DNA from: an uncultured Pelagibacteraceae bacterium
GTDB lineage: Bacteria; Pseudomonadota; Alphaproteobacteria; Pelagibacterales; Pelagibacteraceae
Reading direction: 5' to 3'
Assembly: GCA_902623415.1 (NCBI GenBank)
Contig: CACNTU010000004.1
Location: 1-48,523, forward strand
Length of the DNA: 48,523 bases
Below, one piece after another: positions 11,051-11,377 of the stretch; within the stretch, counting starts at the first letter, position 1; each line of letters opens with the position of its first letter. Both the position numbers and the translations under genes were made by a program. Under the pieces are notes generated by a model, which was not told the origin of the DNA, did not search any database, and was given only the letters and a program-made list of their open reading frames with translations.

Positions 11051-11079
11051 TGGACATAAATTTATAAAAGTGTTATTAA
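11051..11079 (+). promoter_or_regulatory. Putative sigma-70 promoter of rpsU and tRNA-fMet
   Basis: TGGACA (11051-11056, one mismatch to TTGACA) and TATTAA (11074-11079, four of six matches to TATAAT) are separated by 17 bases. Predicted initiation near 11085-11087 leaves a leader of roughly 15 bases that contains the GGAGG element before the ATT codon of rpsU. It would serve both rpsU and the tRNA 5 bases after it. Prediction from sequence only. Confidence 0.5.
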
Positions 11080-11090
11080 GCCACTTTTTC

Positions 11091-11095
11091 GGAGG
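11091..11095 (+). promoter_or_regulatory. Strong Shine-Dalgarno GGAGG that fixes an ATT start for rpsU
   Basis: GGAGG lies five bases before the ATT at 11101. In this frame the last stop is TAA at 11077-11079 and no ATG, GTG or TTG occurs between it and the conserved IEVKDNN sequence, so this element decides the non-canonical start. Most other genes in the window show no comparable purine-rich site. Confidence 0.8.
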
Positions 11096-11100
11096 TAGTT

Positions 11101-11295
11101 ATTAAAATAGAAGTTAAAGATAATAATGTTGAACAAGCTCTTAGAGTTTTAAAAAGAAAACTTCAAAGAGATGGATTTTTTAAAGTAATAAAACTTAAAA
11201 ATACTTACGAAAAACCCTCTGAAAAAAAGAAAAGAATTCTTCAAGAAAATATAAAAAGAGTAAAAAAATTAAATAAACTTAAAAATAGAATTTAA
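11101..11295 (+). CDS. rpsU: 30S ribosomal protein bS21 with an ATT start codon
   Basis: Translation from ATT gives a 64-residue basic protein with the bS21 pattern: IEVKDNNVEQALRVLKRKLQ, then RDGFFKVIKLKNTYEKPSEK, then a Lys/Arg-rich tail. bS21 sits on the 30S platform near the anti-Shine-Dalgarno and takes part in initiation. No standard start codon exists in frame; only ATT follows the GGAGG element at the correct distance. An AUU start is famous in infC, where IF3 discriminates against it and so controls its own synthesis; I infer a comparable translational control here. The gene lies 63 bases after trcR behind a probable promoter and 5 bases before tRNA-fMet. Because it lacks ATG it is easily missed by gene finders. 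Confidence 0.9.
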   Translation: MKIEVKDNNVEQALRVLKRKLQRDGFFKVIKLKNTYEKPSEKKKRILQENIKRVKKLNKLKNRI

Positions 11296-11300
11296 AACAC

Positions 11301-11377
11301 CGCGGGGTGGAGCAGTCTGGTAGCTCGTCAGGCTCATAACCTGAAGGTCGGCGGTTCAAATCCGTCCCCCGCAACCA
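11301..11377 (+). tRNA. Initiator tRNA-fMet (anticodon CAT)
   Basis: The 77-base gene folds as a cloverleaf with acceptor stem GCGGGG/CCCCGC, anticodon CAT at 11335-11337, T-arm GTTCAAATC and an encoded CCA end. The first base C faces A at position 72, the unpaired C1-A72 that marks bacterial initiators for formylation. The anticodon stem reads TCAGG/CCTGA, so the usual three G-C pairs are reduced to two plus an A-U pair at 29-41. It begins 5 bases after the rpsU stop, so the two are probably cotranscribed and processed apart. Confidence 0.98.

Follow-up and report, generated by a model that had tools for sequence, protein, structure and literature searches.

A conserved AUU start codon and a strong Shine-Dalgarno sequence at rpsU of SAR11 bacteria suggest control of ribosome supply at translation initiation

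To our knowledge, AUU is almost never a start codon in bacteria, and the bacterial genes with a proven AUU-type start are few. One of the genes limited individually by a non-canonical start is pcnB of E. coli, which begins at AUU. The infC gene starts with AUU, AUC or AUA in E. coli, Streptomyces and S. aureus and is subject to feedback by IF3 (PMC5472188, PMC13009471); in S. aureus, its AUH start is accompanied by an extended Shine-Dalgarno (SD) sequence (PMC13009471). The same papers describe other single genes that are limited by a non-canonical start, namely sigR of Streptomyces with GTC (PMC5472188), and cvfC1 with AUU and ccpN with AUA in S. aureus, both with an extended SD (PMC13009471); in that species it is the extended SD that directs initiation to AUU or AUA, and bS21 would stand in the way of such a long helix (PMC13009471). 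A different line of work concerns the bS21 gene itself: F. johnsoniae ribosomes without bS21 preferred rpsU mRNA, which carries a very strong SD (PMC9976891).

The rpsU locus of SAR11 bacteria shares traits with each of these systems. It has the rare AUH start of infC; like S. aureus infC, whose SD is extended, it combines such a start with a strong SD, and like sigR, pcnB, cvfC1 and ccpN it is a single gene with a non-canonical start. With the autoregulated rpsU of Bacteroidota it has in common the gene itself, a very strong SD in a genomic setting where SDs are rare, and an intact anti-SD (PMC9976891). A sequence-only reading of the locus had compared it with the AUU start of infC and with bS21 autocontrol in Bacteroidia, and both comparisons are apt. 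The differences are equally clear. SAR11 rpsU encodes a 30S protein and not IF3, and the class-wide avoidance of AUG to which it belongs also takes the form of GTG and TTG starts; none of sigR, pcnB, cvfC1 and ccpN encodes a ribosomal protein; and SAR11 adds a non-AUG start that the available part of PMC9976891 does not describe for Bacteroidota.

The locus was analysed in a stretch of 48,523 nucleotides (the window) from an uncultured Pelagibacteraceae bacterium (GCA_902623415.1, contig CACNTU010000004.1), where its features are arranged as follows:

11051 to 11056, forward strand: predicted -35 element TGGACA, read from the sequence and conserved in the window's family (f1) and in its sister family (f2)
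11071 to 11079, forward strand: predicted extended -10 element (TGT TATTAA), conserved as TGnTAnnnW, with the hexamer TATTAA at 11074 to 11079
11091 to 11095, forward strand: Shine-Dalgarno sequence GGAGG, 5 nt before ATT and kept in f1 loci
11101 to 11103, forward strand: AUU start codon of rpsU, conserved in f1 and aligned with the place where bS21 starts in alphaproteobacteria
11101 to 11295, forward strand: rpsU (bS21), 64 residues plus stop, Pfam PF01165
11301 to 11377, forward strand: initiator-type tRNA-Met(CAT), found by ARAGORN and matching Rfam RF00005 with 63 bits

The bS21 frame is open from 11080 to 11295 on the forward strand, directly after an in-frame TAA stop at 11077-11079, and begins with the codons GCC ACT TTT TCG GAG GTA GTT ATT AAA ATA GAA; no ATG, GTG or TTG occurs in this frame up to the stop at 11293-11295. 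The claim that the frame lacks a canonical start and that ATT stands 5 nt after GGAGG is therefore borne out. The predicted protein matches the Pfam family Ribosomal_S21 (PF01165) with an E-value of 2.1e-15 and 56.6 bits, above the cut-off of 27, and is the sole match found to this family in the genome (71% complete) from which the window comes. Upstream neighbours of rpsU are EF-P, an inositol-monophosphatase-family protein, bL31 and TrcR; the downstream neighbour is an NAD-dependent epimerase family protein. Elsewhere in the window, on the reverse strand at 16708-17024, a 5S rRNA (16910-17024) has a match to the pntA sRNA (16708-16769, RF01810) directly downstream on the same strand.

The start position was compared across SAR11 in nested sets of loci. 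The 80 best matches, all with a 63-residue bS21 body identical to the query, carry ATT in 79 cases and ATC in one; a further 40 loci, drawn from six genera (g1 to g6) of this family, complete the f1 set of 120, which has ATT at 117 loci, ATC at one and ATG at two. The 37 loci of f2 have ATA (36) or ATC (1), and in both family sets several loci may be from one species. A survey of the order found a PF01165 match in 180 of 197 genomes and none in 17, and the start was read at 77 loci. Within the window's genus, an exact-pattern search of 399 genomes found the AUH form in 271, an ATG form in 16 and neither pattern in 112 (draft genomes); among the AUH matches listed, which are part of the 271, the codon is ATT throughout except for one ATC. 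The rpsU start codon of SAR11 evidently drifts within AUH and rarely reaches AUG. The sequence-only reading had proposed to look for ATT and GGAGG in other SAR11 genomes, and ATT or ATC together with GGAGG or GGGGG is kept in 118 of the 120 f1 loci; this agreement rules out a sequencing error, the more so as the ATG loci that were read have also lost the SD. The Ile-type codon of residue 1 in f1 is ATT 117 times, ATC once and ATA never, while residues 30, 46, 51 and 64 mix ATT and ATA. As a caveat, codon 3 (window 11107-11109) is ATA in 117 of 120 f1 loci and also in the 16 ATG matches of the genus; since it is not a start yet equally fixed, codon fixation by itself is no proof. At seven f1 loci an automatic start caller picked a GTG that overlaps GGAGG, and ATT still occupies the start position there. 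Taken as a whole, AUU is almost certainly the real and selected start of rpsU.

The spacing and the codon content of the SD region bear on the one competing start position, a TTG 12 nt upstream of the ATT from which a near-leaderless mRNA would yield a longer protein. The T-run before GGAGG places an in-frame TTG at -12 in 88 of the 94 AUH loci of the window's genus, close to the predicted transcription start, but the codon is missing from the window (where it is TCG), from the other 6 of the 94 genus loci and from all 24 loci of g2 to g6, and where present it overlaps the SD. The distance from SD to start in the 118 f1 AUH loci is 5 nt (107 loci), 6 nt (6), 4 nt (3) or 9 nt (2), and as these changes are not multiples of three, the SD does not serve as coding sequence. 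Furthermore, the codons from TTG to ATT vary in sense, and GGAGG retains its GAG although GAA outnumbers GAG by 528 to 86 within rpsU. An N-terminal extension or TTG start is thus rejected as highly improbable.

The SD itself is strong, and exceptional for the one genome in which it was ranked. It reads GGAGG at 116 and GGGGG at two of the 118 f1 AUH loci, and AAGGAGG-like sites precede the start in f2; median pairing energies of rpsU are -10.6 kcal/mol in f1 and -11.6 kcal/mol in f2, calculated with a 9-nt anti-SD and hence not comparable with the extended-anti-SD measure (below -13) of the Bacteroidota paper. The complete genome of a relative (G003; 1,199,990 bp) has a 16S rRNA 3' end that reads ACCTCCTTT, with the anti-SD (CCUCC) intact, and a median SD duplex energy of 0.2 kcal/mol, equal to that of a control stretch. 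In this one genome, only 4 of 1165 predicted genes pair as strongly as rpsU (-10.6 kcal/mol) or more so, and a properly placed GGAGG occurs in 9 of the 1165. A scan of G003 for further genes that combine a strong SD with AUH, restricted to frames that have no canonical codon upstream, yielded no other example that convinces; this filter hides rpsU itself because of the rpsU TTG, and the scan is therefore not exhaustive.

ATG orthologues, which the sequence-only reading had set against its own proposal, do occur, in 16 of the 399 genus genomes. The 18 ATG loci that were read (17 distinct upstream regions, with G013 represented twice) form a group without SD, with members L151 (G011), L152 (G013) and L479-L494; all lack GGAGG, with energies of -3.9 to +2.1, and they keep the TAGACA element and a tRNA 6 nt past the rpsU stop. 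In a quick tree built from the gene region upstream of rpsU, with 108 loci of which 17 have ATG, the switch needs two changes, and the well-supported branches demand the same; a constraint to a single ATG clade was not rejected (p-AU 0.85). With one or two switches in the tree, the SD loss represents one or two events and not 17. The existence of this clade indicates that the arrangement of AUU and SD is not essential. Comparison of the loci shows that the non-AUG codon and the exceptionally strong SD go together in SAR11 rpsU, and that the SD is gone where AUG came in. The pattern in the ATG clade also speaks for static tuning, in which weak codon and strong SD would fix a constant bS21 output without feedback: the ATG clade pairs ATG with no SD, as though these were two equivalent settings. 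However, ATG is a single mutation away, and SD strength could set a constant level; the retention of AUH in two families, and of weak codons across the class, points to a property that ATG cannot give. Static tuning is for these reasons considered rather unlikely.

A promoter-like pair upstream of rpsU had been noticed in the window, and comparison upholds it: the TGGACA, 17-bp spacer and TATTAA with upstream TG of the window are conserved in both families. The promoter is found at 110 of 120 f1 loci, where the -35 element is TAGACA (100), TGGACA (9) or TAGACT (1), followed by a 17-bp spacer and an extended -10, and at 34 of 37 f2 loci (TAGACA or TGGACA, 17 bp, TGnTAnnnW). Transcription of the window locus is predicted to start near 11086, with a leader of about 15 nt; among the 110 f1 loci with the promoter, the predicted length is 15 nt in 80 and ranges from 12 to 19 nt overall, and in f2 it is 31-32 nt. 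The rpsU promoter is the single instance of the strict pattern in G003, against roughly five occurrences expected by chance from a hand estimate; its uniqueness therefore means little, and conservation is the evidence. Folding of the predicted leader is not more stable than that of shuffled versions (z +1.0), and at the Rfam gathering threshold the rpsU part of the window matches the tRNA only; a classic ribosomal protein operator hairpin is consequently rejected. This outcome fits the model of bS21 feedback considered below, yet proves nothing.

The initiator tRNA follows rpsU closely in much of the family. C1/A72 ends are the mark of initiator-type tRNAs, and the tRNA-Met(CAT) of the window, 5 nt after the rpsU stop, has these ends and is accordingly of this type; its anticodon stem has A29-U41 where the first of three G-C pairs is usual. 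Of three tRNA-CAT genes in G003, only the one directly behind rpsU has C1/A72. All 80 identical-body loci have the tRNA just past the rpsU stop, and throughout the window's genus it follows at 0-8 nt (96 of 96 loci), so that the two probably share a transcript in this genus. The earlier proposal of cotranscription is to this extent probable, with a promoter inside rpsU as a possible alternative. On the same strand at 21 further f1 loci the gap widens to 17-18 nt (g2), 24-32 nt (g4) or as much as 228-242 nt (g5 and g6), and in scans of about 1.5 kb on each side of two g3 and ten f2 loci no tRNA was found near rpsU. The suggestion that rpsU would be linked to the tRNA in other SAR11 genomes consequently holds for five of the six f1 genera and fails in g3 and f2. 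Since the g3 and f2 loci without a nearby tRNA have an AUH start and a strong SD all the same, the tRNA link is not the core of the system; on present sampling, it belongs to most of f1 (five of six genera), and not to the AUH start as such. These loci also weigh on the idea of a feedback unit that senses or controls the abundance of initiator tRNA. The position of the sole initiator-type tRNA of G003 directly behind rpsU and the linkage in the window's genus and four more f1 genera speak for such a unit; beyond the unlinked loci, it faces the difficulty that translational control of rpsU alone would leave a tRNA on the same transcript unchanged, and it is judged very unlikely.

Beyond SAR11, the rpsU start was assigned by alignment at 140 loci in 137 other alphaproteobacteria (three loci are second copies, and 12 were read by hand); no match was found in five of 144 genomes of the class, and one stray region (L445) was left out. 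The starts comprise GTG (66), TTG (22), ATG (30), ATC (10), ATA (5), ATT (2), CTG (4) and one unclear non-canonical codon, and the 21 AUH or CUG starts are spread over 19 families. The four apparent CTG starts are those of L404, L421, L439 and L443. As a control, bS16 was examined in those 30 genomes of the class whose rpsU scored best: of the 28 bS16 loci that were read, 25 start with ATG and three with GTG, whereas rpsU starts with ATG in two of the same 30 genomes (Fisher test, 8e-11, uncorrected for kinship). Among 30 hand-picked genomes of other Pseudomonadota classes, in which rpsU was located by tblastn with queries from outgroup loci, 29 have ATG and one has TTG; the contrast in ATG use with the class is again strong (3e-15, uncorrected for kinship). 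Avoidance of AUG in rpsU looks like a class-wide tendency, with SAR11 as its apparent extreme. Median SD energies in the other alphaproteobacteria are -7.5 for ATG, -7.8 for GTG/TTG and -8.9 for AUH/CUG starts, and -5.9 for bS16; the AUH/CUG starts differ from ATG with p 0.15 and from GTG/TTG with p 0.025. The link between SD strength and start codon among these bacteria is weak, and speaks against a simple compensation story.

The class survey also bears on the main rival explanation, in which rpsU would meter IF3 in the manner of infC: AUU would be rejected by IF3, and rpsU output would report how much IF3 there is relative to 30S subunits. IF3 does reject AUU-type codons, and the GTC start of sigR is a proven IF3-controlled case (PMC5472188). 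The infC starts of SAR11 itself, read by eye, point in both directions. All six f2 loci read have an AUH start, with ATA in L327, L332, L334, L338 and L344 and ATC in L337, so that two f2 genes share the mark; on the other side, infC has GTG directly after the preceding stop at 12 loci of g1, g5 and g6. It has ATG in g2, and the starts of g3 and g4 look like AUH. The AUH start is kept more strictly in rpsU than in infC in these genomes. Moreover, 88 of the 140 rpsU starts of the other alphaproteobacteria are GTG or TTG, codons that IF3 accepts (PMC5472188); rejection by IF3 cannot, on that account, alone explain the class-wide avoidance of AUG. An IF3 meter is therefore regarded as unlikely, although it comes before static tuning among the alternatives.

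The reading favoured here is SD-dependent initiation of rpsU, performed best by 30S subunits that lack bS21; as a whole mechanism it is tentative, and we would place it just short of an even chance. We infer that rpsU is regulated at all, and that its regulation would depend on bS21 or on IF3; likewise, by analogy with Bacteroidota, bS21 would sequester the anti-SD in SAR11. Feedback through bS21-lacking 30S subunits is favoured because the weakened start codon common to the class leaves initiation to the SD helix, and bS21 lies beside the anti-SD. The weak codon would make initiation at rpsU depend on base pairs between GGAGG and the free tail at the 3' end of 16S rRNA. As bS21 would adjoin this tail and join the 30S subunit late, subunits still lacking it would hold the SD helix best and initiate best on rpsU; once subunits are filled by bS21, initiation on rpsU would drop. 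By closing the SD-independent route, the weak codon could turn rpsU into a meter of bS21-free subunits. In SAR11, rejection of AUU by IF3 may sharpen the effect and act as an added gate wherever the start is AUH; in the window's genus, the initiator tRNA is probably part of this short-leader transcript as well, and its supply would then be tied to the rpsU promoter.

Viral homologs of bS21 provide a counterpoint. Among 36 viral loci, which were not dereplicated and consist of 33 IMG/VR loci (contig hosts not given) and three isolate phages, bS21 starts with ATG in 31 and TTG in five, at or just before the start position; of eight phage records found, four have Methylophilales hosts and three have Pelagibacter hosts. 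The bS21 of pelagiphages and other marine phages is homologous to that of SAR11, but has ATG or TTG starts without the host's weak start; ribosome preparations from E. coli were found to contain the bS21 of pelagiphage HTVC008M (PMC6375957). A PDB sequence search returned 14 different members of the S21 family, from mitochondria and from bacteria, of which none informs on regulation. A broader proposal, possible and on balance doubtful, would extend the favoured reading across the Alphaproteobacteria: the bS21 gene would tend to be kept off AUG so that bS21-lacking ribosomes preferentially make bS21, SAR11 with AUU and AUA would mark the limit, marine phages would escape through ATG or TTG, and the make-up of the ribosome would be sensed by choice of start codon.

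Start-codon-limited control of initiation is known in principle; new here are the gene, rpsU, and the clade-wide spread. A search of the open-licence PMC literature (subscription papers and preprints lay outside its scope) found no description of a non-canonical rpsU start. Gene finders that are limited to ATG, GTG and TTG can presumably miss or misplace such genes. The locus contrasts host and virus, since the viral bS21 loci read have normal starts, and SAR11 rpsU offers a ready test, outside the Bacteroidota, of mRNA selection by ribosomes that lack bS21. In dominant bacteria of the ocean, an AUU-type start on a ribosomal protein gene has been kept across two families, and the wide retention of AUU alongside so strong an SD suggests control of ribosome supply at the start of rpsU.
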